NCBI GenBank assembly: GCA_951230915.1
Contig: OX579640.1
Location: forward strand, 20,294,981-20,358,980
Length of the DNA stretch: 64,000 bases
Reading direction: 5' to 3'
Origin: Antitrichia curtipendula
Taxonomy: Eukaryota > Streptophyta > Bryopsida > Hypnales > Leucodontaceae
Of this stretch, positions 1 through 64,000 are shown piece after piece. How positions within the stretch are numbered: position 1 is the stretch's first letter; each line of letters opens with the position of its first letter. The translations under genes and the position numbers were made by a program. The notes beneath the pieces were generated by a model that made no database searches, had not been told where the DNA came from, and worked only from the letters and a program-made list of their open reading frames with translations.

Positions 1-72
1 TAAAAGCAACAAAGCTCTCTTTGTTTCTAACTAATTTATGCAAATCAAGGGGCGCACCCCCTAAAACAAGTA

Positions 73-100
73 GTAAATGACTATAGATACAGTCATTTAC
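73..100. repeat. Short perfect inverted repeat downstream of the ParB-methyltransferase gene
   Basis: Arms GTAAATGACT (73-82) and AGTCATTTAC (91-100) are perfect 10-bp reverse complements around an 8-nt loop. It lies about 155 bp beyond the stop codon of the minus-strand gene, so it could fold in the 3' untranslated region. No function can be assigned. Confidence 0.5.
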
Positions 101-254
101 CACAATCAAAACCATAACAAGATATTGACAATACAAATTCAGATCTGAGGACCATGAGCTAGTAGCTATATTGGCATCATTTTTCAAATGCATAAAGGAA
201 AGAGTAGAAGATGGAGAAATAGATCAAACAAGAATGATCTATCTCAAAACAAGA

Positions 255-3200
255 TCACGTAGACGAAGAAGACATTGAGTGAGAATGAACACTGCTATCA
301 CTACTAGAGGTCTCCTCATCGGCTTCTTCAGCTTCCACATCTACAAATTCCAACACCCTAGGGTCTAAAGGAGTAGCCTTATTCCGTGTAGGGAGAAGGC
401 GCTGGGATGCAAATTGAACTGCTAACGCCTCGGCATAGGGGGGAAGTAGGTACGGTTGCTCCGGACTAGGAAAAAAACCGGGCGAAGAGTACAATGGCCA
501 GTGTTGCACCTCATTACTAATCATGCTGCATGGAAAAAAAAAGAGTTATAAATGTCTTAAGATAGGCCAAGGTGAAATGAACATGAACAAGTGCAAATTC
601 AAAAAGGACTTACTTACTGAATCGAGATTTCTTGATAATATGTTGAACCACGACCTCCTCTGCATCTGGATCGTCAGAGGCCAATGTCACAGGTGCAGGT
701 GTTACAGAAACAACATGAACTAGACGAATGAGAGGAGCCAACATTGCATCGAAGATGGCCTTGTCTTCTTCTAGGGCTATAATGTGCCTGTCTAGAAGCC
801 TGCAAGCGTGGATTGAGGCCCCTGAAACATGAACATTGAATTGAAATTAAAATTTGACTACATCAAGTGCAACAGCTTTGACATGTAATTTGCATCATTA
901 ACACGTGAAGGGTTGGTGCTACAATGTACCAGTTGAAGCCGTACAATCTAGAACCATGTCACCCGGGATAGATGACGCTTCAATGAACATGGCCATAAAT
1001 CGAGGGTCCTTCTCACGCGCCCCTCTCCACGGAGTACCCTTGTCCATGGCCATCGTTTCCGAGGTAGTGAAGTTTTGCATAATGTCGTCACGCTCAACAT
1101 CCACCCCGAGTGCAAGCAATGTCGGACAGGGCTGGAATGCAAACTTTGAAGGACCAACGTTCGGCAAGTTCCTCACAAACAACTAAATTCCGAAACGCAA
1201 CGTCTGCAAAACAAAACTGATCAATGTCACTTCAGCTCTTACTAGAATGTGAAAAATATTGAAGTGAAGCTAAGAACTTGGCACAAGAGGGGGACATTAC
1301 CGTCAATGAACGATCCAAGGGCGACGTTAAGTGCAAGCGATTTGCCCCCCACCATTCCTTCCGTAATTTGAAAGCATAGGGATCTGCATAGCTGCGGATG
1401 TCAGCTTGGGCTTGGGCCCTGTAAGGATAAATAATAAGTAGTGCCCCATCATCCTGTAAATGTCCATCGGCGAATTCAAAAAGAGATTCAAGCCAGGAAT
1501 CGGAGCGCTGATTCCACTTTGGAATCGCAGAAGGAGGCTTGGACACAGTAGGAACAAGTAGCCCTTCAGGCATGTCGGCGATGATGAGGTCCACCCGTGG
1601 TGACGTACTCCGAACTCCTTTGAAGGATCGATCTTTATCCACTGCGTGCTGCAATTAAGAGGAAATTCAGTATAATACACAAAAAGACAACAAGTGAGTG
1701 AAAATGACATTGTAGATGAGAGGAGAAGGCCGCACCTTTTCCATGAATTTTAGTATGTCATGGTAAAGCGGAGGCAGTGGATCAGCAAGAACTGCCGTTA
1801 GAGACGAGTTGCAAATGAATTCATCAATGGAGATGTCTGTGTCATTGACCAAGTCAATGACAGTGGGTCCACGAACTAAGCCCGCTTCCGTGAGTGCTAA
1901 TCGTTCCGATCCACGCTTCGAGCCTAGAAATGGATGTCTGCAATCGAGACCCCTGATCCACGACAGATGAACCGGCTATCGGTTGCTTTGGAGTCTGCTC
2001 CACATTCTTCTCCTTAGACGTCACCTTCACCTTCTCAGCAGTTTTGAACTTCTTCTTCGTCACTCGTTGAAGCGCCTTGTCGACTGCCTTGGAGTTCTTC
2101 ACGGCAATCTTCTTGTCGGCCTCCTCCCTCCTCTTCATTGCCTTTGCTCTAGCATCCTCGTCCAAGCCATTGAACTCGTCGTACTCAGGCACAAGTTCTT
2201 GGGAGTCAATGGAACGTTTCAATCTCTCCTCCGGTAGAGGTGTGAACTCAGGAGGGCAGTCCAAATACCATGCTCCGGACTTCAAGTGAGCACTTGTCCA
2301 CCACCGCAACTGTGAAGGAGAAAACATGCAGTGTTCGGTGGAAACGTCTAGCCATGTACTTAGAAATGGAGGCAGCTCGCGCTTCGCAATTGCTGCTTTT
2401 GGAAGCAGCTCGTACTTGAAGTACCTGACAAGGTAAATACTTCTCAGAGCTGTGATATAAACGAGATCCCTAGAAAACGAAATTTGATTGCATTTGAAAA
2501 TAATCAGTTCAAATAAAAATTTACCTGAATATTACTCGCTTGACCACGAGGTCAGAACCCTTGTGCTTCGAAAACAAATCAGACTTTTTGAAGACATCGT
2601 GGCCTCTTAAGTGAGAAAGGAATGAATGATCCCACAGTCGGATTCTCCAGCCCTCGATGTATTCAGCTAAAACCTCGGGTTCTTGAGGCGAGTCCATGGC
2701 CAAATCCAGATTATCCTTCTTGACGATATTGTCAAACATTTCTGTTGCTGCATCCTGTATCTGAACATTCAAGAGATGGAAGCGGTTTTAGGTAAGCATC
2801 AACATGCAAGTCAACTCCTGTAGAGAGATTTAAGTTACGAATTCAAATGATGTAGAGAACAATGGGAAGATCAAATACCAGTTGAAGTCACTCACCCCTG
2901 CGTACCAACACGCCTTGACTAAGAAGGCTTTTAAGTCATTTTCACCCACGGGCTTCATAGGAAATCGACGAGCCTCTCTAGTTTGGGTGGACAAGTTCCA
3001 CCAACGTAACCACATGATTTTGTGCTCTGACGATACATTGTAGGTAGCAATCATCTGCAACTTGTCGAGAGTCATCTCTGGGATAGTATTTGTACACCAG
3101 TGGCGCTCAATCTTCACAGAATCATTGGAAAAATTAGAATTACAAATACATTCAACAACATTGAGAAATTGAAAATCTGTCAGAATGAGAACTCACCTCA

Positions 3201-6200
3201 TCAAGCCACTCCTTCCCGAGACTTGGATTAGCCACAGCAATGAGCTTCCCCAACTTTTTGGTCAAGACAGCTGTCTTCTCTTTTGTTCCTAGTTTCATCG
3301 CATCCAGAACTCCATTCTCTGTCTGCTCCTCCACTGGCGTGTCTTCCTTATACAACCTCACTGCAATATCTGCTGCGGCAACTATTTCATACTGAAACGG
3401 AAAATGGATAAGACAAGTGAGATAAGAAAACAATGAGAACTGAAGAATATATGTAACTGAAGTCTACTTCAAGAGGAACAGTGACACTTACACGATAAAT
3501 GAATGCCGTAAACACCTCTAACGACATGCTATACCATGACTTCCTCAAATTCTGAGTGCATTGTAACATCTCAGAGGCACTCAAGTGATCGGCGAACTTA
3601 TCCAAGGGCATGACTCCGTATTTACGGACCCGGTACAAGGTGTGCACCAAGCTTGTCCGGATAAATGAATTCTCAGTGTGTCTGTAATTACAAATCAAAC
3701 AATTCGTCAGAATCCCTTTGCTCATAGGAAAACATGACAAAAGAGTCACAAAATAGGAGGAGAGAGTTGTGCACGTACTTATTTATGTCGTGCATAACAT
3801 GCATGACTTCTCCAATCCGCCCCTTCGTCTCTAATAATATAGAGTCAACGGAAACATGCCAATCTCGGTCATTATCATGGTGAAGAGAAATATATGATGA
3901 CCAAGCCAGAAGCCGATGGTTACCATCGCATACAAAGAACTTAGAGTTCTGGAGATGCTTCAACTCCGGCGTAGAACTCAAAATTCCATTAAAAACATCA
4001 TTCTCTTCATTCCAAAGAGGTCCCCATGCAACCTTCTCACTCTCTTTGACGTGCTCCTCCTCCCCCTGTTCATTTGTAATTGAAACATAGAAGACGGCCG
4101 ACCCATCCCTGTACCCAAAGACAAATTCTTCAGCTAGCCTAGTCAAGTCAGACTTCAATGCTGGTCTAACCATAGGCATCGCAGACAGGCGACACAATGG
4201 AATTCAGAGTCGAGATACGGAATGGGGCTTCATTCGGAGACTTGAGATGGACGACACCGAATTCACTTTCTGGGATCTACGTAGAGCATCCTCCGAAGTG
4301 AAGTCATCCACAAGTTCTAAATCATCGGCCTCGGATCCGTCCTCTTCCATGTCTTCAACCATTGATATATCTGGCTGATCAGGAACAGGCGATTCAGCAT
4401 TCTCAGGTTCCATGTCCACCTCAGGATCAGGAGTAGCCTAGAGCAAAACCTGGAAAACAGTACAGCAATCAAAGTTAATGTGGTCCGCGATATCACAAAA
4501 TATTGGATCTTGTTCGGGGATCAAGGTGGGAGCTCTCGGCGCCGAGAGGGCACAATCACGAGCTAGGACCTGATACACAAGACGAAATGGCGAGCGGGAC
4601 GAATCCGAAAAAATATTCCAACACCCGATCACCCGTCCCAGTGGGATCACGTCGGGGGAGCAGGCTGGCTGCTCTCGGCGCCGAGAGGGACCAGTCACGA
4701 TCTGGGACCTGATACGCAAGACGAAACGAAAGGCGGGACGAATCCAAAAAAATGTTCCAACACCCGATCACCAGTCCCAGTGGGATCACGTCGGGGGAGC
4801 AGGCTGGCTGCTCTCGGCGCCGAGAGGGACCAGTCACGATCTGGGACCTGATACACAAGATGAAATGAAAGGCAGGACGACTCCAAAAAAATGTTCCAAC
4901 ACCCAATCACCCGTCCCAATGGGATCACGTCGGGAGAGCAGGCTGGCTGCTCTCGGCGCCGAGAGGGACCAATCATGATCTGGGACCTGATACACAAGAC
5001 GAAATGAAAGGCGGGACGACTCCAAAAAAATGTTCCAACACCCGATCACCCGTCCTAGTGGGATCACGTCGGGGGAGCAGGCTGGCTGCTCTCGGCGCCG
5101 AGAGGGACTAGTCACGATCTGGGACCTGATACGCAAGACGAAACGAAAGGCGGGACGACTCCAAAAAAATGTTCCAAGACCCGATCACCCATCCCAGTGG
5201 GATCACATCGGGGGAGCAGGCTTGGTGCTCTCGGCGCCGAGAGGGACCAGTCACGATTTGGGACCTGATACGCAAGACGAAACGAAAGGCGGGACGACTC
5301 CAAAAAAATGTTCCAACACCCGATCACCCATCCCAGTGGGATCACATCGGGGGAGCAGGCTTGGTGCTCTCGGCGCCGAGAGGGACCAGTCACGATCTGG
5401 GACCTGATACGCAAGACGAAACGAAAGGCGGGACGACTCCAAAAAAATGTTCCAACACCCGATCACCCATCCCAGTGGGATCACGTCGAGGAAGCAAGCT
5501 GGCTGCTCTCGGCGCCGAGAGGGACTAGTCACGATCTGGGACCTAATACGCAAGACGAAATGAAAGGCGGGACGAATCCAAAAAAATGTTCTTACACCCG
5601 ATCACCCGTCCCAGTGGGATCACGTCAAGAGAGCAGGCTCGATGCTCTCGGCGCCGAAAGGGCACAATCACGAGCTAGGACCTGATACACAAGACGAAAC
5701 GACGAGCGGGATGAAACCGAAAAAATATTCCAACACCCGATCATCCGTCCCAGTGTGATCACATCAGAGGAGCAGGCTCGGTGCTCTCGGCGCCGAGAAG
5801 GACTAGTCACGATCTGGGACCTGATACACAAGATGAAATGAAAGGTGGGACGACTCCAAAAAAATGTTCCAACACCCGATCACCCATCCCAGTGGGATCA
5901 CGTCGGGGGAGCAAGCTAGCTGCTCTCGGCGCCGAGAGGGACCAATCACGATCTGGGACCTGATACACAAGATGAAATGAAAGGCGGGACGACTCCAAAA
6001 AAATGTTCCAACACCCGATCACCCATCCCAGTGGGATCACGTCGGGGAAGCAAGCTGGCTGCTCTCGGCGCCGAGAGGGACTAGTCACGATCTGGGACCT
6101 AATACGCAAGACGAAATGAAAGGCGGGACGAATCCAAAAAAATGTTCTTACACCCGATCACCCGTCCCAGTGGGATCACGTCAAGAGAGCAGGCTCGATG

Positions 6201-8008
6201 CTCTCGGCGCCGAAAGGGCACAATCACGAGCTAGGACCTGATACACAAGACGAAACGACGAGCGGGATGAAACCGAAAAAATATTCCAACACCCGATCAT
6301 CCGTCCCAGTGGGATCACATCAGGGGAGCAGGCTGGCTGCTCTCGGCGCCGAGAGGGACCAGTCACGATCTGGGACCTGATACACAAGATGAAATGAAAG
6401 GCAGGACGACTCCAAAAAAATGTTCCAACACCCGATCACCCGTCCCAATGGGATCACGTCGGGAGAGCAGGCTGGCTGCTCTCGGCGCCGAGAGGGACCA
6501 ATCATGATCTGGGACCTGATACACAAGACGAAATGAAAGGCGGGACGACTCCAAAAAAATGTTCCAACACTCGATCACCCATCCCAGTGGGATCACGTCG
6601 GGGGAGCAAGCTAGCTGCTCTCGGCGCCGAGAGGGACCAATCACGATCTGGGACCTGATACACAAGATGAAATGAAAGGCGGGACGACTCCAGAAAAATG
6701 TTCCAACACTCGATCACCCATCCCAGTGGGATCACGTCGGGGGAGCAGGCTGGCTGCTCTCGGCGCCGAGAGGGCACAATCACGAGCTAGGACCTGATAC
6801 ACAAGACGAAACGACGAGCGGGACGAAACCGAAAAAATATTCCAACACCCGATCATCCGTCCCAGTGGGATCACATCGGGGGAGCAGGCTCGGTGCTCTC
6901 GGCACCGAGAGGGACCAGTCACGATCTGGGACCTGATACGCAAGATGAAATGAAAGGCAGGACGACTCCAAAAAAATGTTCCAACACCCGATCACCCGTC
7001 CCAGTAGGATCACGTCGGGGGAGCAGGCTGGCTGCTCTCGGCGCCGAGAGGGACCAATCATGATCTGGGACTTGATACGCAAGACGAAACGAAAGGCGGG
7101 ACGACTCCAAAAAAATGTTCCAACACCCGATCACCCGTCCTAGTGGGATCACGTCGGGGGAGCAGGCTGGCTGCTCTCGGCGCCGAGAGGGCACAATCAC
7201 GAGCTAGGACCTAATACACAAGACGAAACGACGAGCGGGACGAAACCAAAAAAATGTTCTTACACCCGATCACCCGTCCCAGTGGGATCACGTCGGGGGA
7301 GCAGGCTGGCTGCTCTCGATGCCGAGAGGGACCAGTCACGATCTGGGACCTGATACGCAAGACGAAACGAAAGGCGGGACGACTCCAAAAAAATGTTCCA
7401 ACACCCGATCACCCGTCCTAGTGGGATCACGTCGGGGGAGCAGGCTGGCTGCTCTCGGCGCCGAGAGGGACTAGTCACGATCTAGGACCTGATACGCAAG
7501 ACGAAACGAAAGGCGGGACGACTCCAAAAAAATGTTCCAACACCCGATCACCCGTCCCAGTGGGATCACGTCGGGAAAGCAAGCTGGCTGCTCTCGGCGC
7601 CGAGAGGGACTAGTCACGATCTGGGACCTGATACGCAAGACGAAATGAAAGGCGGGACGAATCCAAAAAAATGTTCCAACACCCGATCACCCATCCCAGT
7701 GGGATCACGTCGGGAGAGCAGGCTCGGTGCTCTCGGTGCCGAGAGGGACTAGTCACGATCTGGGACCTGATACGCAAGACGAAATGAAAGGCGGGACGAA
7801 TCCAAAAAAATGTCACCTTGTTGCCCTGGACTGTCAGGGTTTCTCCGGCGTTGCTCGCAGGCTCGGCCCGATGCGTTTTCTGGGGACTGCTTTTGTCTCC
7901 CACCCCTTCGTCGTTCTCGCGGCCGCCATCCCGCTCGTTGTTGATGCGATCTCCATCACGGCTGCGTCGTCTTGGAGCTGCATTCCTGGTCGCTGGCTTC
8001 CGCACCAT
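255..8008 (-). CDS. ParB/sulfiredoxin-like domain fused to a DNA amino-methyltransferase fold, 13-exon gene
   Basis: Exon model, minus strand: 8008-7817, 4437-4281, 4160-3779, 3681-3492, 3391-3197, 3111-2896, 2760-2525, 2424-1973, 1923-1736, 1648-1301, 1182-930, 821-614, 525-255. All junctions are GT-AG, phases agree, and the total is 1,095 codons plus stop. The product begins with a basic, then an acidic tail. Exon 3 has the ParB/Srx signature FFVCDGNHRLLAW. A Lys-rich stretch lies in exon 8. Exon 10 has VDLIIADMPEG at the position of the methyltransferase catalytic (D/N)PPY motif. Exons 11-12 give MVLDCTASTGG, then RHIIALEEDKAIF, matching the AdoMet-binding motif and its acidic ribose contact. 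Catalytic motif before AdoMet motif is the order of permuted N6-adenine/N4-cytosine enzymes. ParB-methylase fusions are known in phages and mobile bacterial elements. The protein ends in a Ser/Asp-rich tail. Weak points: the introns at 4280-4161 (bypassing a TGA) and 1972-1924 (only 49 nt) are inferred from frame, so one could be a real lesion. Confidence 0.68.
4510..7812. repeat. 24-copy 139-bp tandem array with a 16-bp palindrome per copy, inside intron 1
   Basis: The palindrome CTCTCGGCGCCGAGAG recurs at 4533, 4672, 4811 and on to 7730 at exactly 139-bp steps: 24 copies, 23 intervals and no net indel. Eighteen copies are perfect. Six have single or double changes (5645, 5784, 6201, 6896, 7313, 7730). 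Two sequence types alternate, one with GACTCC before an A-run and one with GAAACCG. A 556-bp block (four units) at 5526 recurs at 6082. Because 139 is not a multiple of three, the roughly 100-codon open frames crossing the array are not real genes. The array fills intron 1 (7816-4438) of the ParB-methyltransferase gene. The 5' splice donor of that intron sits in the edge of the last unit. The units are far richer in CpG than the surrounding DNA. Confidence 0.95.
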
Positions 8009-9494
8009 TGTTTCGATCTATTGAGGAAGTGAGAAAGGATGAGCAAAACTGATGCTGAGGTAGCGGGAACTCGCAAAACACTAAACCCTAAACTCTAAGA
8101 ACTACCTCCATAAAAGTGAACCAGACACGCACCGAGCTCCGTTTCGTTCGTCTTTTCCCACGGACCTCTTAGAATTAGGTTTCCCAGAAAGTTCTTTGTG
8201 CATGAAGACTATCCCGGTTCTAAGAACATCAGCTTATAGAACAAGACAATGGAACGCTGCTTAATCCCGATTCTATGAATTGCGAGACAATGTGTGATTG
8301 TTAGAATTGACCCAAGTTATAAAATTTGGAACAATGCTAGGGGTATCTTTTTCCTAATGTAGGTATCATCGAATCTGTATTCAAGGGTCACTTTCAACAT
8401 TGCATGATAATGATCATGTAGGAAACGCTTGGTTGATTTCTAGTTCTAGAAGTAAATGTAATTCAAAAAGCAAATTATGATCATGCAATCATGCGGGACT
8501 TACAGAATGATCGCTGGAGGTTTTGGGTGCTTTATTGTCTTCGATGCAGGATGTCCCACATAGCAGGGCCACTCTCTTCTTGGTCTCAGTACTTTGCCTT
8601 CTCAATCGTGCACGGGTTAACTCCTTTCGTGATGAGAAATGGGACCTTCCTCTCTTTTTGGATTTCCTCGCTTTACTCAATAAACCACGGTCGGGTATGT
8701 GTTGTGCTAAAGGCATGAGACTAATAGTTCATATTACTTTCAGAAGGTAATGACCCTTCCAAAATCCTCTAACTAAGATGTCCATACATATCCTAATGAC
8801 CCATTTGAAACTCCTACTCTCCTTTTGTAATTTCATTTAGACTCAGCGCCTCTGAACAGTATACCACAACTGTGAACCTGAACTTCGGCAACCACAACTG
8901 AGTTCACATATTATATCTAATACTTGTTTGTCAGTTGGTAGTGACGGCCAGTTCCAAGAGCTGTTGAAATCAGTCACCCTAGATTTAGCCCGTTTTCAAA
9001 ATCTTCCTGTCATCATATATATAGGTCAGCTACATTTTTTATGATTTTATGGGACAACTCTGCAATGACGCCGTGATGTATCATGGGATGGGGGGGAAAG
9101 GTCCTATGCCTGCGTTCTGATAGCAAAGTAGGAGGTGTCTACGTGGACTCCTCTCTACGTGTATCCCAAATCTACAGACATGTCACATGGTCCTTGAATT
9201 TTGAATTACTCTCATTTATGAATTAGGTTAGATATTGTCTCGCTTTAAGAGTACTCACTCCTAGTATACATTTGGGCGGCGATTTTAGACATCCAAATTG
9301 GGGGCTAGTGATAGTACTGCATCATTATACGCAATGAAGACACATTATTCCTATCTTTTGAAGTTCCCGTTGTAAGACAAGTACATGCTCGCATATTTTC
9401 TACGTCTGGATCACTTCATTCAGTAGGAGTTTTTGTTTTCTATGGTTGCTGTAAAAGTGTTCTCATTTCAAGTGTGTTCAAGTTTGCTTCGTCA
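8009..9494. promoter_or_regulatory. Shared 1.5-kb interval between two divergent genes, probable bidirectional promoter
   Basis: This stretch separates the start codons of the minus-strand ParB-methyltransferase gene and the plus-strand transposase gene. A telo-box-like AAACCCTAA lies at 8083-8091, about 75 bp upstream of the minus-strand start. A TATA-like ATATATATAGG lies near 9015, upstream of the plus-strand gene. No convincing coding sequence is present. Promoter function is inferred from gene arrangement only. Confidence 0.45.
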
Positions 9495-12400
9495 ATGGCC
9501 ACCATTAGAGTGGATGGCCATGAAATTCCATTAGTTCTGCCTTTAGGAGAAGGAGGGTATGCTATAGTGTCTTTTCACCTCCTTTATGTTCGTTTCGGAT
9601 TTCTCCAATCTAGTATTTATGTTGAGGAGGAAGTCATGTCTGATTTGGGGCACTTAATAGAGTCCATCCATATGCCAAAGTTAATTCTAGAGGACGGTCA
9701 TTGCTGGCACCTCCGTCGAGGGCGTTATAGGGTATATGGTTTGCCTTCTATCATGCGGGATACTTCCACTGAGAGATTGCCACGGGAGTCAGACCACTCC
9801 ACTGTTAACATGCCGTTTGTAGGCCAAAATATAGGAACTTCTGTGGACAGTGATTGCTTTACAATTGCTACGACTCCGATTCAACTTGTCCGAGTGAAGC
9901 TAGAAGTTAATGTCCCTGTGATAGATTTATCTAGTGAGTCGGAGGGAGAGTTGCCTAGTCAACCAGGTCTTGCAACAACGCTTCCTAGACGTGTCTGTAG
10001 TGACGTACAGGAAACAACATCCGGTAGGTACTCCACGCCTACTACTAGTCCTGCTTTGTCCACTCACTCAAGACCACCAACTCACCCAAATATTTCAGTC
10101 GGGCACAGTATCGTTGGGTGCCTTCACAAACTAGCATCTATTCGCGGATCTAGGAACGAGGTTGCTGCATTAGATTATGATTTGCTCGACCATCAGAAAG
10201 TACAGTACCTTCCTGCAGACTTTGATGGAAACGTAGTATTCGAGTTGCCTTCTCTTCGTGCTCCGTCTTCATCATCCGCTGCTGGGAACTTATAGGGTAT
10301 GGATAAATGATACGATGGGCATACATGGTATCAGACCATTACATCCAATATCCATAATCAGGATAGCTTGAAATTCCGAAAATCATCTTGTACAGGTCAT
10401 TTGATTTGTAACAATTCCGATTGTGACTATTTCAGGCGATCTTCCAAGCGGAATGAGATTGAATGGTGTGGATATACTCCTACTCCTTTCTATGTTGGTG
10501 CACTCTCTCCAAAGGATTCTACTGTTCTATGCAAAATATGCAAAAGTTCACCCCACTGCGTCAGTACTTGTGATGCTAGAGTTTATTACGTTTATAGTGA
10601 TACTCCAGGGATGACGAGAGCGTGCATCCATTTGGGTAATCACATGCATCCTGTTGCTTCTGGAACCTGTAGAGAGTCGTTAGACACCATTTCGGAGCTC
10701 ATTGCAGGTGAAGTCTTAAAAACCCCTAGTGCCACTAACTCAGCCATAGCCCTTGCAGCTAGTAAACAATTTCTGGATAACTACCTCATACACAACGGTG
10801 AAGGTCCAAAGGAGTTGCTGCGGGGGAAGTCGCTGGAAGATGTCATGGATAGGTTCCAGATCCTTAGTTCCCCGAACATCCGTAACACTATTTCTTCATT
10901 TCGTAGCACTGGAAAAGGTGGGGTCATAGATAGCATTATGAATATGAAACGAAATCTAAAGTTTGAATACATTCATGAGAGCATTTTTCCTGGACAGGGA
11001 AAAGAAAAAGTGTACTTGTTTAAGATGTTGGTCGATGGACCTGGTAGTGGGGTAGACTTGGTGAAGCGTATGCAAGTGGGAGGAGATTTGGAGAACGCGT
11101 GGCTCATGTTTGATCACGTAAAACGAGTAAAGGATTGGACCACCATGGCCTGCCATGTCTATGACACAGGATGTAGAAAGGTCATGACAATCGCCGTTTG
11201 TGACATGCAATTTGAAGATACTGAGATCCAGTGCATTATGTGGAGGTTACTAAATGATGTTATGAGACGCAACGGCGTAGTGAATACAAACTTCAAGGGC
11301 TTCATGGCAGATAGCGCGCAAGCAAATTGGAATGTTGTTCGAACTGTATACGGCACGGGGAACCCCAAAATGGAGATGGTCAATCGCGAACGAACATGTC
11401 TTCTGCATTGGAGTACTTCGTTGCACCGGCATACCCAGAAGCTCATCAAACCGGATATGCAACACCAACATATACGTCTATGCAAGCAATATAAAGACTC
11501 AATCACTATAGAGGAAGCTGCGATAAGGTATTTGGCCATTTGATCTTGGTGGTTATCATCCAGGGCAGCCTCAGAAGATGCTCTGCGTGAATCGGAGTTG
11601 TGGCTCGCTTTTTGGCACTTCCGATATCGCCAATGGGGAGGCTTTATGCAAATGGTATGTTTAGATCCCTCCTTCAGTTCTGTTGCTTTTGTTCTTTTGC
11701 ACTATCACTTTGAGATGGCTTTCTCTGCTACGAAATTATTATTACGGAAAACTATGATTGTGATCAAACCGGTAATAGGATGCCATACCTCTCGGAGCCG
11801 AGAGGTGCCTTCACAGCCTGCTGACGAGATCAAAATCATAAATGCTTTGCCATACCTACGCAAGTTGAAGTCTGAGTCTTTTCAGCCTTAACAATTGTAG
11901 GACTAACAAGAATATTTCTTTTGCAGGGACTGAGTGTTGAGGAAATTGCTGACATGCCATCATGCAACTTATCAGAAACAGTCCACAACAAATGGTTGCA
12001 GCAGTCGAGTAATTGCGGTAATGACTTGTTCGCCGCCACCTGTGATGATTGCATTCGAGCCTTCATGCAAATGACAAATTACCGGTCTTTCTTGAACGGC
12101 ACAACGTCAAGGTCGGGTCCATCAAAAGAGGAGCTAAAGTTAAGAGGTGCTAGACGCAGCGGCAACCCTAAGAAGATCGCGGAGGCGTTGAATGTCATTC
12201 CTGGAGCAGCTGAGGTTGCAATGCGTGTTCCGCACTTGGAGGGTGAAGAGGTATTTGGCAGCAGTAAGCGCAAACTAGACCTCCCTATTGGGTCGGATGG
12301 TGATTCCCATTGGCCGGACAAGGTGAACTTCTCTCAGCCAAGAGTCATGACTCGGTCTACACGCACACCCACGGAGTCTATCAAGGATAGGAACGAAGTG

Positions 12401-13333
12401 GCTAACTGTGAGCATGTGCCACATATCACTATTGCGTTGGAAAGTGATTGTGACACTTTTCAATGGCATATTGCGAGGTTATCCCACAAGTCTAGCTGCA
12501 AATGTCATGCCCAGCAACGAGGATCAAACATCCGTTGCGTTGCCAAAATTGCAAGAAGAAGCAAAGGCACTTCAGCTCCTACATACCGCGGACGCAAAAA
12601 ACAGTACGGAGGAAATAAGGAGATCGTGACAGATTTTTGGTTCTGCCCAGATGATGTTCACCGTTGCGTGCGAGGCTCTAAACGTTCTTGGGTAATTGAT
12701 TGGCCTGAAGTACCAGACATCTGGCTTGTATTGACAGGCACTAGTTTATCTCGTCAGGAAACACTTCTGCTGCAGGAAGCTGGATTCCAGCCCCAAGACC
12801 GACCACCTATGTCACCTCGACGATTATTCACGATGTCAAATGTTTTTGAGGCGGTCATGTATGATCAGCCTATCCTTGTGCATGCAGACACCTATCCAAC
12901 AACTCGCCGAAACAAGCCTATTAGACGTATTGCAAATGCTCCTACTACAGAGCATCGCAATAAGTGGGAGAGTGCTGGGAACGTCAAAGGTACAATCTTA
13001 GGAGTCACGATGCTTCCCTTTCTCGGACTTGGAGCCATAATCTCCCTTCAATCTGGAACGGAGCCTGCACACAAAGTCTACCGAATCACACTGGGCATGT
13101 ACTCGGAGTGTACTTGTCCTGATTTTGTGGACATGGCTGTTTCAGCAATTGGTGGACGCCATCAATATGTTAACTGCAAACATCTCTATTACTTATTTCG
13201 TTACTTTTGCAAAATGAACCTAGTAGATGACAAGTTCATACATTCTCCAAGCTTCAGCTTTAATGAGGTCAAGCGCTTCCTCATTCGGGCTGGTATCATC
13301 AACGTTCCAAATGAGGTTCTGTTTGATACTTAG
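9495..13333 (+). pseudogene. Mutator-like (MULE) transposase with SWIM zinc finger, three in-frame nonsense codons
   Basis: Exon 1 is 9495-11654 and exon 2 is 11927-13333; the phase is 0 at the junction and the frame is about 1,188 codons. One frame runs through exon 1 but is cut by TAG (10293), TGA (10308) and TGA (11541). Homology-like sequence continues across each, so these are lesions, not gene ends. An N-terminal segment carries VPVIDLSSESEGE, a canonical SUMO-interacting motif. A Cys/His cluster follows (LICNNSDC, then LCKICK, then CIHLGNHMHP), as in FLYWCH/GCM-type DNA-binding domains. Catalytic candidates are Asp in LMFDH (codon 540), Asp in FMADSAQ (codon 606) and the C-x2-H motif CLLHW (codons 635-638). 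The C-terminal SWIM finger is CTC, 17 residues, then CKH. It is divergent from the ParB-methyltransferase gene. KDZ/Zisupton transposases also carry SWIM domains and remain an alternative family. Confidence 0.8.
11655..11926 (+). other. Transposase intron containing a copy of the array palindrome
   Basis: The intron runs from ATG|GTATGT to TTGCAG|GGA. At 11787-11806 it holds a near-palindrome with 9-bp arms, ACCTCTCGG and CCGAGAGGT, around a 2-bp centre. The inner 16 bases match the array palindrome at 15 of 16 positions. The rest is ordinary AT-rich intron. Confidence 0.8.
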
Positions 13334-13946
13334 GAACTCTAGAGCCTGAGAGTGACTGAGATCTGAATGTAAATTACTTCTAACTGAAGTTACACTTGTG
13401 GACAAAAGTATAAATTTTTCTTTGGGAAAATCTTGTAATTGAAGGTTATATTTTATATACCCTTCCTTCCATCGTCAGGTTCATCTTTCACATCTTTCAC
13501 CTCGTCTTTACAATGTATACTCCCATCATTATATGCTATTATGATAAACAACACCCCTAATACAAATTATTTTTATCCACGGTCATAGGTCCATGGTGAT
13601 AGGTCTGGGGACCTAGACCCTGAAATTTATATTGAACTTCAAATTTAGCCCAAAATGTTTGGATTCTCCTTTTATTTTCCACTATTATTGATATCTATAC
13701 TATTTTTTCTAATTCCAGTGCTCCATGCTCACAGTATTCCCGCTCGCCGCTCACAAGCTCACGCTCACAGGCTCACAGAATAGCACCGCTGTGTGGAAAG
13801 GGAGGAGGGAATTCTCACCCCATGCAAAATCTAATTTTGTTTACCTTTGAATTTTATTAAGTACACCTTCAACAAGCACAACCTACAAACCTTAACCTCT
13901 TAAATCGTGCTTGGGGAATGTGTATAATTTTCAATGTATGGTGCTA
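13334..13946. other. Intergenic, no gene seen
   Basis: AT-rich sequence 3' of the transposase pseudogene. A short run of CTCAC-containing repeats lies near 13725-13785. No terminal inverted repeat matching the left end of the window was found, so the right boundary of the presumed large element is unknown. Confidence 0.5.
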
Positions 13947-57740: not shown

Positions 57741-59168
57741 TCAATTGAAATTGGGCAGCTCTTGCCCTTGAAAATATGGCAAGTTTTTTGCAATAATGTC
57801 TTGGAGATGTGGAAACAATTGCCCTACACTCCAAGATCCATCAAGTCCTAATGCTAAGCCACAACAAATCATTGTTTTCCTAGCATAAGAGATGTTGTCA
57901 ACATCCACTTGTCGGTTGACATCTTCTACACCATCCGCAGCCAATTGTAGGAAAAATTGTTTGCCCGGATTTGTCAATTTTCCTGACCATTGTCCATCTG
58001 CCCGAGGTGTATTTTGCCAAGCATTGAGTTGTATCAACTCAATTTTCTTGGCTTCCCACCATTTTGTCCATGCATCCTTGATTTTAGCAATGAGGAATGT
58101 ATCTGCTGGTTGGCAAAGGTGAGTAGAACATGGAGGTAGAAATTTGAAATTCGTATTTTTGGCTGCTAGGACAGCAGCCAATGTAGGGGTTATAGCATGT
58201 CCGGTACAATTATCAAGCCATATGATCTTCATCCGTTGATGAAGATCGGCTTGATACGCACGAGGTTCCAAGAAATACTCGGGTAAGATGGTTTGGTCCA
58301 TCCAGCCTTTAGGGCCAGATCTATAAGAAACGCCGGGAATATTATCCATCAAACCTCGGATAGGATAGCTTCTATTTTGATTTGCAAAAATGAGCATAGG
58401 GGCTTCTATAGTGGCCCGCCGGCCCCCAGAAATCTGAACCACCATAGTCATGAATTCTCCACCCGAGACAACCTCGGCGTATTTTACAGTGGTATCTCCC
58501 CTAAACCCTAAGGTTTGTCTGTTGTCAAGATTGACAACAAAATGTGTTTCATCCAGGTTTTCCATGAGGTTTTCATCGAATTCCCTGGATGAAAAGCCCC
58601 TTTGCAAGACCCCCAAATGGTAGGCGGTTTGCAATTCGATTTGAAGCTCTTTTTCAGGGCTACAAGTCAAACGACCACGTTGGGATAGCAAGACAATATT
58701 ATGATTGTCCATGAATTGATTGACCCAATTTGCCGTAATTTTTTGGACCAACAAAATACCGTCCTTGGGATCAATAGAGCGGTCGGTGAAAATGGATCTA
58801 GGAGCTACGAGAATAGATAGGGTTAATTCACGAAGGAGGAATGCGGAGAATTTAACACCTGATTTGTAGAGGCGGTTGAATTCTTCAAGCAAAAGTAGGT
58901 ACAAATATTGCACCCACTCGCTCTTTTTAGGGCCTCGACCCGGCTTTGCCTTGGGAGAGTGGCGCCTCCTTTTGCCTAAGCAACTTTGGCTACACGAGAA
59001 CGGAGTCAAGGGGCTTGGAGCATTTTCTTCAAATTGGTCACGTTGTTGCCACCATCGGCTGGCTTTGATGAGTTTGGCCGGGCGTTGGCCACGGAAATGC
59101 TCCGGAAACGCGTAGATGACGCGGGCATTGAGGCCAACCAAGCCATGAACGCCGACATCCTCCACCAT
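57741..59168 (-). CDS. Pogo-like transposase (HTH plus DDE_1 catalytic domain)
   Basis: A single open frame of 475 codons from the first ATG (59168). The frame is open further up to the terminal repeat (33 more codons without an ATG), so a non-AUG or spliced start is possible, since that part (SLATRRSVINW) also looks conserved. A CENP-B/Tc5-type helix-turn-helix ends in ITANWVNQFMDNHNI (about 144-158). The catalytic triad is D206 in NLDETHF, D319 in IWLDNCTGH and D356 in CQPADTFL, that is DD36D. A Lys/Arg-rich stretch (KRRRHSPKAKPGRGPKK) may be a nuclear signal. It cuts and pastes the element at TA sites. No stop or frameshift is seen. Pogo elements of this type are common in fungi and animals and sparse in plants. 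Confidence 0.9.
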   Translation of the reverse strand: MVEDVGVHGLVGLNARVIYAFPEHFRGQRPAKLIKASRWWQQRDQFEENAPSPLTPFSCSQSCLGKRRRHSPKAKPGRGPKKSEWVQYLYLLLLEEFNRLYKSGVKFSAFLLRELTLSILVAPRSIFTDRSIDPKDGILLVQKITANWVNQFMDNHNIVLLSQRGRLTCSPEKELQIELQTAYHLGVLQRGFSSREFDENLMENLDETHFVVNLDNRQTLGFRGDTTVKYAEVVSGGEFMTMVVQISGGRRATIEAPMLIFANQNRSYPIRGLMDNIPGVSYRSGPKGWMDQTILPEYFLEPRAYQADLHQRMKIIWLDNCTGHAITPTLAAVLAAKNTNFKFLPPCSTHLCQPADTFLIAKIKDAWTKWWEAKKIELIQLNAWQNTPRADGQWSGKLTNPGKQFFLQLAADGVEDVNRQVDVDNISYARKTMICCGLALGLDGSWSVGQLFPHLQDIIAKNLPYFQGQELPNFN

Positions 59169-59582
59169 CCAATTGATGACAGATCGGCGAGTGGCCAAAC
59201 TAGAAACTTGCTGAAGTCGCCGGGCAGGGGAGTCGGGAGGAATCTGAGCAAGCGGGAAAATTGTCACCCAACACTATTTACCAATTTTAGTGTAGTAAGG
59301 TCATGACACATGTCCTGAAGTAGTGAGTAAGAAAGTAAGAAGTAGTGAGTTGAAAAATAATTCTTGAATGATTGAAATTGGAAGACTCAAGATATTGGAC
59401 ATAAATCCATACCAACTTTGGGCTTCCAAAATTCATAGTAATTTCAATTTAAGCAATAAAATCACCAAGTTTTTGACAATCCCCCTCATTTCTATTTTTG
59501 TACCTGTGGAAATATTTCTTTCATTTTTTTGTACTCCACATCATGTCCACAATTGCTTATTTAGTCGGTTATGGGTGGTTTG

Positions 59583-62209: not shown

Positions 62210-63527
62210 CCTAAACACATGCAACTGATACAAGCAGACACATGCCACTGAAGTGAGTTCGTCGAGGAGGTTTTAGGGTTGAGCGTGCTTGAATGAATTT
62301 CACTCCAGAACTTTCTTTGTAATTGATGAGGTTAGAAGGTGGTTTTAATTTGTCGCTGCTATCACTGTCTATAGCTTGGATTTTGTCACATGGAGTTGTG
62401 GTTTTATAAAGCATCAGGGTTCTAAGGAGTTTTAGGTGTGGAGCTACAATCTTCTGCACAAACTTTTGAGGTTTAGGAGCTTCTTACGGTTTACAGGTAC
62501 ATCTCAAGCGCTTACTTCGTTTGACTTTATTGCTGTAGAGCTCTGGATTGCTCCTCTTGAAGCTCTTGGGTCTCTCTATTTCTATTAGTTTTTGTAGTTT
62601 GGGATGCGAAATTGTTTTCTTACGCCGGAAAGCTTACTTTTGACAACTGTTTGAGCTCTGATTGCGGATATTGTACTTGGGTTAGAGGATGATTAGCCAG
62701 GTGGTGTTTTGGACGTCGAATAGTCTTAATTCTCTAAGGATTTTCTGTGAGATAGGGTTTGAAGAGAGACGGAACTCTGCATCTTTGTCATGTTCTTTTC
62801 CTGCATTGTTATGAGATTTGCATTTTGACTTGGAAGCACGCAATGAATAGTGCAAGACTTTGCTGTTGAGGTTGGTTTCAAATAATCAATTGTTTCTGAT
62901 TTGAATTGAAGGAAACTATGTGTGTAGGAGTCTGCGTAGTGGGTGCTTCATGATTTCTATGTGCGTCACTGTCGGTGTTTGTGAGGCTCTGCCCTGTCAT
63001 TGTTGTTGTTGAGGGTTTTTTTAGAAAATTTGAACCCTGAAGGATTGCTCTACAATTTTGGAATCCCGTATTTCTTCACGTCATACATGGCACTTGAGTA
63101 AATTGATGAGTACAAGCTGAATATTAAGCTGATCAAACATGATGCTCTTCTTTCAATCTACATTTTGTCATTCTTTCTTACCTAATCAGTTTAAAGAAAC
63201 AAGGAAATTGATAGTCATCCAGAAAGGACTCCTCAGTTCTTTAGGCTTAAGTTCTGTAAGTATGTTGTGGAAGAAGGTGCTGATCAACGTTATGTGCTTG
63301 CATTGTCCTGGAGCAGTGTGGAGCAGTGTGATGTTTTTGTCTGGATTGATGTAGTGATTGGTGGATGAACCAACAGTCTTTACATTATATAGGTGTTTTC
63401 CTTTGAGACCAACAATAATTCGAATCATTTTTTTTCTATATTTGACATGTCTTGTATGTAATGATTTCAGATCCTATTCTTTGAGGACTCCTTCATCACA
63501 ATCAGGAGTTCATTGCAAGGGTATTTC
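62210..63527 (+). other. Upstream region of the F-box gene, probable promoter and 5' leader
   Basis: The base composition is less AT-rich than the DNA before it. A plausible acceptor ATGATTTCAG occurs near 63470, just before the F-box start, suggesting a 5' untranslated intron. No other coding frame is supported. Confidence 0.4.
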
Positions 63528-64000
63528 ATGGCGTCATCTGATTCGAATCATCTCCTTAATGAAATTATACGCAGTCTTCAAAGCTATGAGCATCTAGCTC
63601 TAGCCACTAGGCCATGCATACTTGCACCTCCCCCCCCTCCTGAGATGATCCTTGGCCCCACGGAAGAGATGGATCCCAAGTTGTGGGGCAATCTACAACA
63701 TCACATTGGTTTGGAGAGTGTTTTCGCCAAGTTGCCATTTCGAGAGTTTTTCCAGTTGCGCCTTGTGTGCAAGGAATTTAATGCAATGGCTTTTGATGAG
63801 AATTTTTTGGAGGCCAATGCAAATCCTCTCAGCAAGAAGCCTTTCTTTTGTTTAGTCCATCCAGACGGCATTTGGCAACTCTTTGTGGAGTATGACCGAG
63901 TCTCTAATGAGTGGCACCAATTGCCGGTTCCTACGCCGAATGGAACCACTGATGACTACCCTCCCCTGTGGAATGCTGGTGGTCATTTAGTCTGTGTTGA
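63528..64000 (+). CDS. F-box protein (probable F-box/kelch type), 3' end beyond the window
   Basis: It is open from ATG 63528 (MASSDSNHLLNEII) to the window edge, 157 codons without a stop. A Pro run (APPPPPE, about residues 33-39) precedes the F-box, about residues 49-92: DPKLWGNLQHHIGLESVF, AKLPFREFFQLRLVCKEFN. This is the L/P-rich signature that binds SKP1 in SCF ubiquitin ligases. After it, KPFFCLVHPDGIWQLFVEYD, then WHQLPVPTP, is typical of the first blade of kelch or galactose-oxidase-like propellers in plant F-box proteins. The substrate is unknown. The start is the first ATG after an apparent 5' leader acceptor. Confidence 0.88.
   Translation, partial: MASSDSNHLLNEIIRSLQSYEHLALATRPCILAPPPPPEMILGPTEEMDPKLWGNLQHHIGLESVFAKLPFREFFQLRLVCKEFNAMAFDENFLEANANPLSKKPFFCLVHPDGIWQLFVEYDRVSNEWHQLPVPTPNGTTDDYPPLWNAGGHLVCV

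Follow-up and report, generated by a model that had tools for sequence, protein, structure and literature searches.

A probable Mutator-like DNA transposon of the moss Antitrichia curtipendula carries a second gene with a DNA amino-methyltransferase-family domain and a putative ParB-like region

A transposase gene and a methyltransferase gene lie between inverted repeats

We analyzed a 64,000-nucleotide stretch of the genome of the moss Antitrichia curtipendula (GCA_951230915.1, contig OX579640.1, positions 20,294,981 to 20,358,980 of the forward strand; hereafter, the window). The left part of the window is occupied by a DNA transposon, the second gene of which, divergent from the transposase gene at 9477-13300, would, in open copies, encode a protein with a methyltransferase domain preceded by a candidate ParB-like region (Table 1). 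The element has terminal inverted repeats (CAGGGTTGCTGTCTGTGAGC... and CAGCGGTGCTATTCTGTGAGC...) and an identical 10-bp target duplication, TGTGGAAAGG, on both flanks, the right flank beginning TGTGGAAAGG at 13792. An earlier note on this DNA had presented a plant gene "possibly serving a mobile element." The latter suggestion proved apt, the gene being enclosed together with a transposase by inverted repeats and target duplications; the former needs revision, since the gene belongs to a multicopy DNA transposon and is not a settled plant gene.

The same boundaries recur elsewhere in the genome. Three recent copies of family A, namely, A10, A3, and A1 on contigs C10, C3, and C1, show 98.9-99.4% identity along their 16.4 kb and have different flanks (CACATTCTTG, TTATGGATTA, and TTTAAATTTG). 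The family A ends read CAACGACGCTAG... and, reversed, CAGGGTTGCTAG..., and like ends are found in the window copy and in the family B element B4; the inverted repeats, compared over 45-90 bp, are imperfect and GTGAGC-rich. In each A copy, the base preceding the left end recurs after the right flank (G, A, and G, respectively), and the duplication is therefore 10 bp long. Such a duplication was found in 5 of the 6 elements tested, being exact in the window copy, A10, A1, and B4, and accompanied in A3 by a changed final base of the right end. A script scanning for exact 10-mers that adjoin CA...TG ends recovered A10 (C10:13003777-13020209; 16,433 bp) and A1, added B4 (C4:29841334-29856748, CTTTAGAAAC), and missed A3 owing to the changed base. 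No target duplication was found for the family C element C3, for which the scan gave only 2 low-scoring pairs.

Structure and decay of the methyltransferase gene

The methyltransferase gene is a single minus-strand gene running from 8008 to 255, for which we drew 11 exons by hand, 2 fewer than the 13 of the earlier model, with GT-AG at the borders of all 10 introns. The motifs quoted previously all occur, in the order given, on the minus strand: FFVCDGNHRLLAW in exon 2, VDLIIADMPEG in exon 8, MVLDCTASTG in exon 9, and RHIIALEEDKAIF in exon 10. Only the reading MVLDCTASTGG has to be amended, because the exon join gives DCTASTGASIHACR rather than ASTGG. The description of an intron-rich gene of a plant genome with a permuted N6/N4-type methyltransferase domain was thus borne out. 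The assignment of the ParB-like and methyltransferase parts to one gene also stands, because P0001, a hypothetical protein of Ceratodon purpureus described below, aligns across both parts, its DGNHR region included; furthermore, the exon order is kept in other copies in the genome.

Table 1. Features of the transposon in the window
Feature	Position	Strand	Remarks
DNA transposon, window part	1..13791	.	start 568 bases upstream of the window; whole element G000:C8:20294413-20308771, 14,359 bp
Exon 11, C-terminus and stop	255..525	-	
Exon 10, ASIHACRLLDRHIIALEEDKAIF	614..821	-	
Exon 9, motif X and motif I (WRGAREKDP ... VLDCTASTG)	930..1203	-	in-frame TAG at 1183-1185
Exon 8, methyltransferase motif IV region, VDLIIADMPEG	1301..1648	-	
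Exons 3-7 with introns, conserved middle region	1736..3681	-	exons 3681-3492, 3391-3197, 3111-2896, 2760-2525, and 2424-1736; frame change in exon 7
Exon 2, acidic stretch and ParB-like region with FFVCDGNHRLLAW	3779..4437	-	in-frame TGA at 4204-4206
Exon 1 (proposed), basic N-terminus	7817..8008	-	ATG at 8008, GT donor after 7817, in phase with exon 2
Transposase, first frame, predicted DDE/RNase H fold	9477..11660	+	57% identical to the 729-aa frame of family A; 3 stops here
Transposase, second frame, SWIM-like CxC...CxH	11927..13300	+	no stop codon in the window copy
Right terminal region, inverted repeat and GCTCAC repeats	13702..13791	.	ends ...AGAATAGCACCGCTG

Judging from its sequence, the window copy is a decayed member that would not be expected to give the full protein by standard splicing. 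The TGA in exon 2 lies in an alignment with P0001 that is ungapped around the site apart from the stop; the TAG in exon 9 is in frame when the canonical acceptor is used; and the reading frame shifts part way through exon 7. The first transposase frame is interrupted as well. The A10 copy is open at all 3 lesion sites of the methyltransferase gene, with a single open exon opposite exon 7, and has open frames in both genes. Two ways around the lesions were considered and rejected. An alternative acceptor (TTTAG, 1183) would splice past the TAG, but loses a stretch kept in the other copies read there, and no intron of plausible length was seen around the frame change in exon 7, where A10 has one open exon.

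Intron 1 of the window copy holds a 139-bp minisatellite with the core CTCTCGGCGCCGAGAG, present in 23.6 copies (4532-7813), between the coding parts of the divergent genes. The array at the like place in B4 differs, with a 106-bp unit in approximately 11 copies, and a long array is absent from the scanned parts of A10 (L009 5600-10000) and of the family C element C3 (L024 8015-10000).

Copy number and probable superfamily of the element

A search of the genome (400,189,583 bases in 303 contigs) with P0001 yielded 3486 first-look candidates, of which 40 were scored; each of these 40 matches over the DGNHR exon with E ≤ 5.3e-33, and they lie on contigs C1-C10 and C155. Together with the window copy and with L014 and L020, both found in the flanks of other copies, the genome contains at least 43 copies of the gene. 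Whole elements were examined for some of these, and both genes are present in all 7 elements read on both sides.

The closest structure to the transposase model in a Foldseek search is that of ISCth4, and its predicted fold is that of a DDE transposase with an RNase H fold related to IS256, the description used for Mutator-like elements (MULEs). According to PMC6446971, MULE target site duplications are 8-11 bp long. The closeness to ISCth4 and the 10-bp duplication together point to Mutator-like elements, and the transposon likely belongs to the Mutator superfamily. Many plant MULE transposases have a SWIM zinc finger; the second transposase frame of the moss element shows a CxC...CxH pattern, with the SWIM model PF04434 reaching E 0.081 and 12.9 bits against a cut-off of 19.6, and transposase residues 1-84 and 207-461 gave only weak ubiquitin-like, TDP-43-like, and GCM-like structure matches.

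Several features of the surroundings of the copies were also recorded. B4 and B10 (L018-L020 and L021-L023) share more than 20 kb at approximately 99% identity, reaching past the element, which suggests a segmental duplication. A further diverged gene copy lies at L020 2095-5652, 4-8 kb past the end of B4. Just past A10 (L010, L011; C10:13020800-13029500) are repeats of approximately 0.7-0.9 kb, direct and inverted, with 79-85% identity.

The methyltransferase domain and the ParB-like region

The C-terminal part has solid sequence-based support as a member of the N6-adenine/N4-cytosine DNA amino-methyltransferase family in the beta order. A profile of 7 hand-read sequences matched, among solved structures, those of the bacterial beta-class N6-adenine methylases DpnA (1.8e-9) and CcrM (1.2e-7). 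The CcrM match (6pbd) is one stretch, positions 16-228 to 31-249, covering nearly the whole domain in permuted order, and DpnA was matched in 2 stretches in the same order, motif IV preceding motifs X and I, as the earlier note had proposed. Against the curated PF01555 cut-off of 26.7 bits, the window half scored 27.2 bits (over the stretch 235-287 only) and P0001 30.4 bits (903-1119). In a 7-row alignment of the domain, 5 rows match PF01555 at E ≤ 1, the A10 row with 19.1 bits falling under the cut-off, and the A10 exons searched separately gave no PF01555 match. Motif I is D-x-x-A-S-T, and the motif IV aspartate is kept, in all 9 sequences read. The canonical catalytic motif IV is (D/N/S)PP(Y/F/W). 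The 7 sequences of this genome read at this site have DCPE, DMPE, DVPD, or DITE in its place, and the aromatic residue is kept only in the Ceratodon proteins (DTPF and DQPY). The enzyme, placed here by fold and sequence family, may therefore be inactive or altered; in the rotifer N4CMT, a change of SPPY to APPA abolished activity (PMC8885841).

The N-terminal part was claimed to be a ParB/sulfiredoxin (Srx) domain. The G-x-H-R box lies in the core of the ParB/sulfiredoxin fold, and the motif itself stood up: DGNHR is present in 13 of the 14 copies read and in P0001, the copy with a stop (L014) reading DGNQR, and in all 9 rows of an alignment of the region made without L014, which also shows a conserved IPLCR start. 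The domain assignment did not gain equal support. PF02195 (ParB_N) has no match in the genome, which is weak evidence because at E ≤ 0.001 the model likewise misses both SopB of the F plasmid and a plasmid protein annotated as ParB/Srx; none of the 3 PDB matches at E ≤ 10 is a ParB/Srx structure; and a fold model built for the exon 2 region with 2 input sequences was unusable (pLDDT 35.5). Compared with families, the 9 rows gave one weak match to DndB (0.013) and one to DUF1015 (0.063), both of which we take to be ParB-like, and a chance match to Dermatopontin was better (3 rows, 0.0087). The best outside likeness is to a ParB-like protein of phage phiM9, picked after a chance-level hit (E = 5), with which the region shares FLVCDGNHRLAA at an hhalign probability of 94 over 23 columns only; the alignment with the annotated plasmid ParB/Srx protein has a probability of 0.3. 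The label "ParB-like" is accordingly used here at the level of a motif, the DGNHR box.

Relatives outside the genome

The spliced product was compared with 5.8 billion proteins in a search limited to relatives sharing short exact words, so that a wider presence is possible; it returned one match, the hypothetical protein M758_1G295400 of C. purpureus (P0001; 31% identity over 909 columns, E 1.3e-116). A 2-sequence profile added KC19_7G101700 (P0002). Both proteins carry the methyltransferase domain, and P0001 also has the DGNHR region. The locus tags of P0001 (1G295400) and P0002 (7G101700) indicate different chromosomes and 2 annotation series.

The earlier note had further proposed an ancient bacterial or phage source for the fusion, and the searches did not support this, the phage and plasmid matches listed lying entirely within the methyltransferase part. 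With P0001 as the tblastn query (E ≤ 1), matches were obtained in 264 of the 50,697 phage records and in 140 of the 72,556 plasmid records, and no record reached 80% coverage of P0001; the best 20 of the 264 and the best 20 of the 140 all fall in the methyltransferase part, as do the best 40 of the 521 plasmid records matched by P0002. When the ParB-like part was searched by itself, the yield was 1 plasmid record and 8 phage records, each with E 5-8. At the matches inspected in 3 phages and one Escherichia coli plasmid, the underlying frames are short and no ParB gene is named, and a scan of viral contigs with 2 short patterns confirmed no relative.

Selection and mutation patterns

Gene copies are under purifying selection. 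We compared exons b-F of 15 loci (105 pairs) and retained the 20 pairs with a proportion of synonymous differences (pS) below 0.7; L003 and L025 are the same locus, leaving 19 pairs, and L025 duplicates L003 in 4 further pairs. The ratio of nonsynonymous to synonymous substitution rates (dN/dS) ranges from 0.06 to 0.53 across the 19 pairs and from 0.06 to 0.14 in the 10 pairs with dS > 0.2, 8 of which are near saturation (dS 1.4-1.7). The sound pairs are L002/L006 (0.13 at dS 0.21) and L014/L019 (0.10 at dS 0.58). For the methyltransferase exons, the ratio is 0.22 in L014/L019 (dS 0.25), 0.13-0.27 among the A copies at dS 0.015, and, near saturation, 0.12 in L014/L020 and 0.17 between the window copy and L025; further pairs at dS 1.5-3.4 give 0.16-0.37, and the remainder are saturated. 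The transposase yields 0.11 at dS 1.35 between the window copy and the family C element C3. Given these low ratios, the gene has been kept for a coding function over much of the history of the element.

Among the 3 A copies, most singletons (139 of 166) are transitions, and 127 of the 166 are C>T or G>A, an excess that would be expected if the host methylates the copies at cytosine (5-methylcytosine).

Possible role of the second gene

Our preferred reading, to which we assign a probability of roughly 45%, is that the second gene of this MULE-type transposon encodes a ParB-like methyltransferase that binds and methylates the DNA of the element itself, thereby escaping silencing or aiding recognition by the transposase. 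The ParB-like N-terminus would bind element DNA and bring the methyltransferase domain to it; the domain would then mark the element's own DNA, and the marked element might either escape host silencing or be recognized by its transposase. DNA binding by the N-terminus, catalysis, the base modified, self-targeting, and the benefit to the element are steps that we infer. A narrower version, in which the transposon writes N6-methyladenine (6mA) or N4-methylcytosine (4mC) on its own DNA through ParB-guided methylation, as a self/non-self tag shielding it from plant silencing or licensing its transposase, is somewhat unlikely.

Several observations weigh against this reading. Motif IV departs from (D/N/S)PP(Y/F/W), and no family or structure matches the ParB-like region significantly. 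The 9 young family C pairs have dN/dS of 0.30-0.53 (dS 0.04-0.07), and the C>T/G>A excess resembles that of silenced, methylated elements, so any anti-silencing would be incomplete. A1 appears broken, with its second transposase frame in 2 pieces and exon G in 2 overlapping pieces. Regarding the superfamily, TM-scores for ISCth4 in the Foldseek search are low (0.12/0.21), and no MULE model matches the transposase (A10 first frame and 47 homologs); Transposase_mut is matched by one of the 47 homologs at E 0.034.

The non-canonical motif IV also suggests a different role, in which the fold and the S-adenosylmethionine site were kept and methylation was lost, leaving a sequence-specific DNA-binding partner of the transposase or an anti-silencing binder resembling VANC of Arabidopsis VANDAL elements. 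The E or D at the aromatic position in the 7 sequences of this genome, which come from diverged families, looks like constraint rather than decay, and dN/dS well under 1 suits such a protein; on the other hand, all 9 sequences read retain AST in motif I and the aspartate in motif IV, and the Ceratodon proteins have DxP(F/Y). We regard loss of methylation as somewhat unlikely, and it is because of motif IV that it does not fall far behind methylation of the element's own DNA. That the gene is neutral cargo, a plant or bacterial gene captured in the manner of Pack-MULEs, is improbable: MULEs do tend to pick up host gene fragments (PMC6446971), and several copies are broken, including that in the window, but the gene is found in 7 of 7 elements across diverged families with its intron structure kept, and dN/dS is 0.06-0.22 in the best-dated pairs.

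Viral genomes often encode self-marking enzymes of the methyltransferase type, and the locus could accordingly be imagined as a large DNA virus that has integrated into the genome or as a transposon of viral descent, with the methyltransferase as the self-marking enzyme of the virus. We consider this very improbable, as 2 genes were recognized in the 16.4-kb A10, whose other, non-overlapping frames (up to 158 aa) were not searched, and the viral contig scan confirmed no relative. An intron-rich gene with a hypothetical counterpart in Ceratodon might also be a host gene adjoining a transposon by chance, which is hardly credible when inverted repeats and target duplications enclose both it and the transposase and when whole, nearly identical elements occur on 3 contigs; for this genome, where the gene lies inside the element, we rejected it.

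Comparison with known systems

Transposons carrying a DNA-modifying gene are of a known kind. Closest among plant elements are the VANDAL MULEs of Arabidopsis ("Vandal families of MuDR," PMC12730594), the extra gene of which, VANC, encodes a DNA-binding anti-silencing protein that counters the silencing of its own element sequence-specifically (PMC5735166, PMC10398659), whereas the extra gene of the moss element has a methyltransferase domain. Many lineages of fungal TET/JBP DNA transposons likewise pair a DNA base-modifying enzyme with a transposase, although these enzymes are 5-methylcytosine dioxygenases and Mutator is absent from the 11 lineages listed in PMC12730594; the accessible part of that paper names no DNA amino-methyltransferase cargo. 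Transposon-encoded DNA methyltransferases under purifying selection (Ka/Ks < 0.2) are described for DNMT retrotransposons of Symbiodinium and Klebsormidium and for DIRS elements with Dam-like adenine methylases (PMC5890265). Those are retrotransposons, in contrast to the moss DNA transposon with its different methyltransferase arrangement and ParB-like N-terminus. Oomycete MULEs (PMC6446971) carry a SET domain, a histone methyltransferase according to PMC12730594 and thus a histone-type enzyme; the word "methyltransferase" is absent from the main text of PMC6446971.

DpnA and CcrM (PDB 5hfj, 6pbd) share the permuted order and the motif X and I region with the moss protein, which differs in its altered motif IV, long middle region, ParB-like N-terminus, and location in an intron-rich nuclear transposon gene. 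N4CMT of bdelloid rotifers is likewise an amino-methyltransferase of bacterial origin in a eukaryote, but a host gene with a chromodomain, a link to transposon repression, and a canonical SPPY (PMC8885841). In the part of the open-access literature surveyed, we found no description of a plant DNA transposon with an amino-methyltransferase or of a ParB-like/methyltransferase gene in land plants, nor this combination as a whole. As transposons are subject to silencing through DNA methylation and several of them encode modifiers of it (VANC, TET/JBP, DNMTs, and Dam-like enzymes), the simplest reading by analogy would be a like job for the second gene.

The element bears on the open question of whether transposons wield DNA marks as a weapon or merely suffer them, in that a plant element keeps a DNA amino-methyltransferase-family gene under selection across diverged families. 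The presence of 6mA and 4mC marks in land plants is disputed, and the element offers a defined, multicopy target for testing their role. It also provides a possible identity for P0001 and P0002, the hypothetical proteins of Ceratodon.

Other features of the window

Beyond the element, a 510-aa open frame at 57741-59273 has a DDE_1 transposase domain (PF03184, E 1e-11) and represents a second, unrelated transposon, presumably pogo/Tc-like. At 63465-64000, an F-box gene (PF00646, E 1.2e-5) begins and continues past the window edge.

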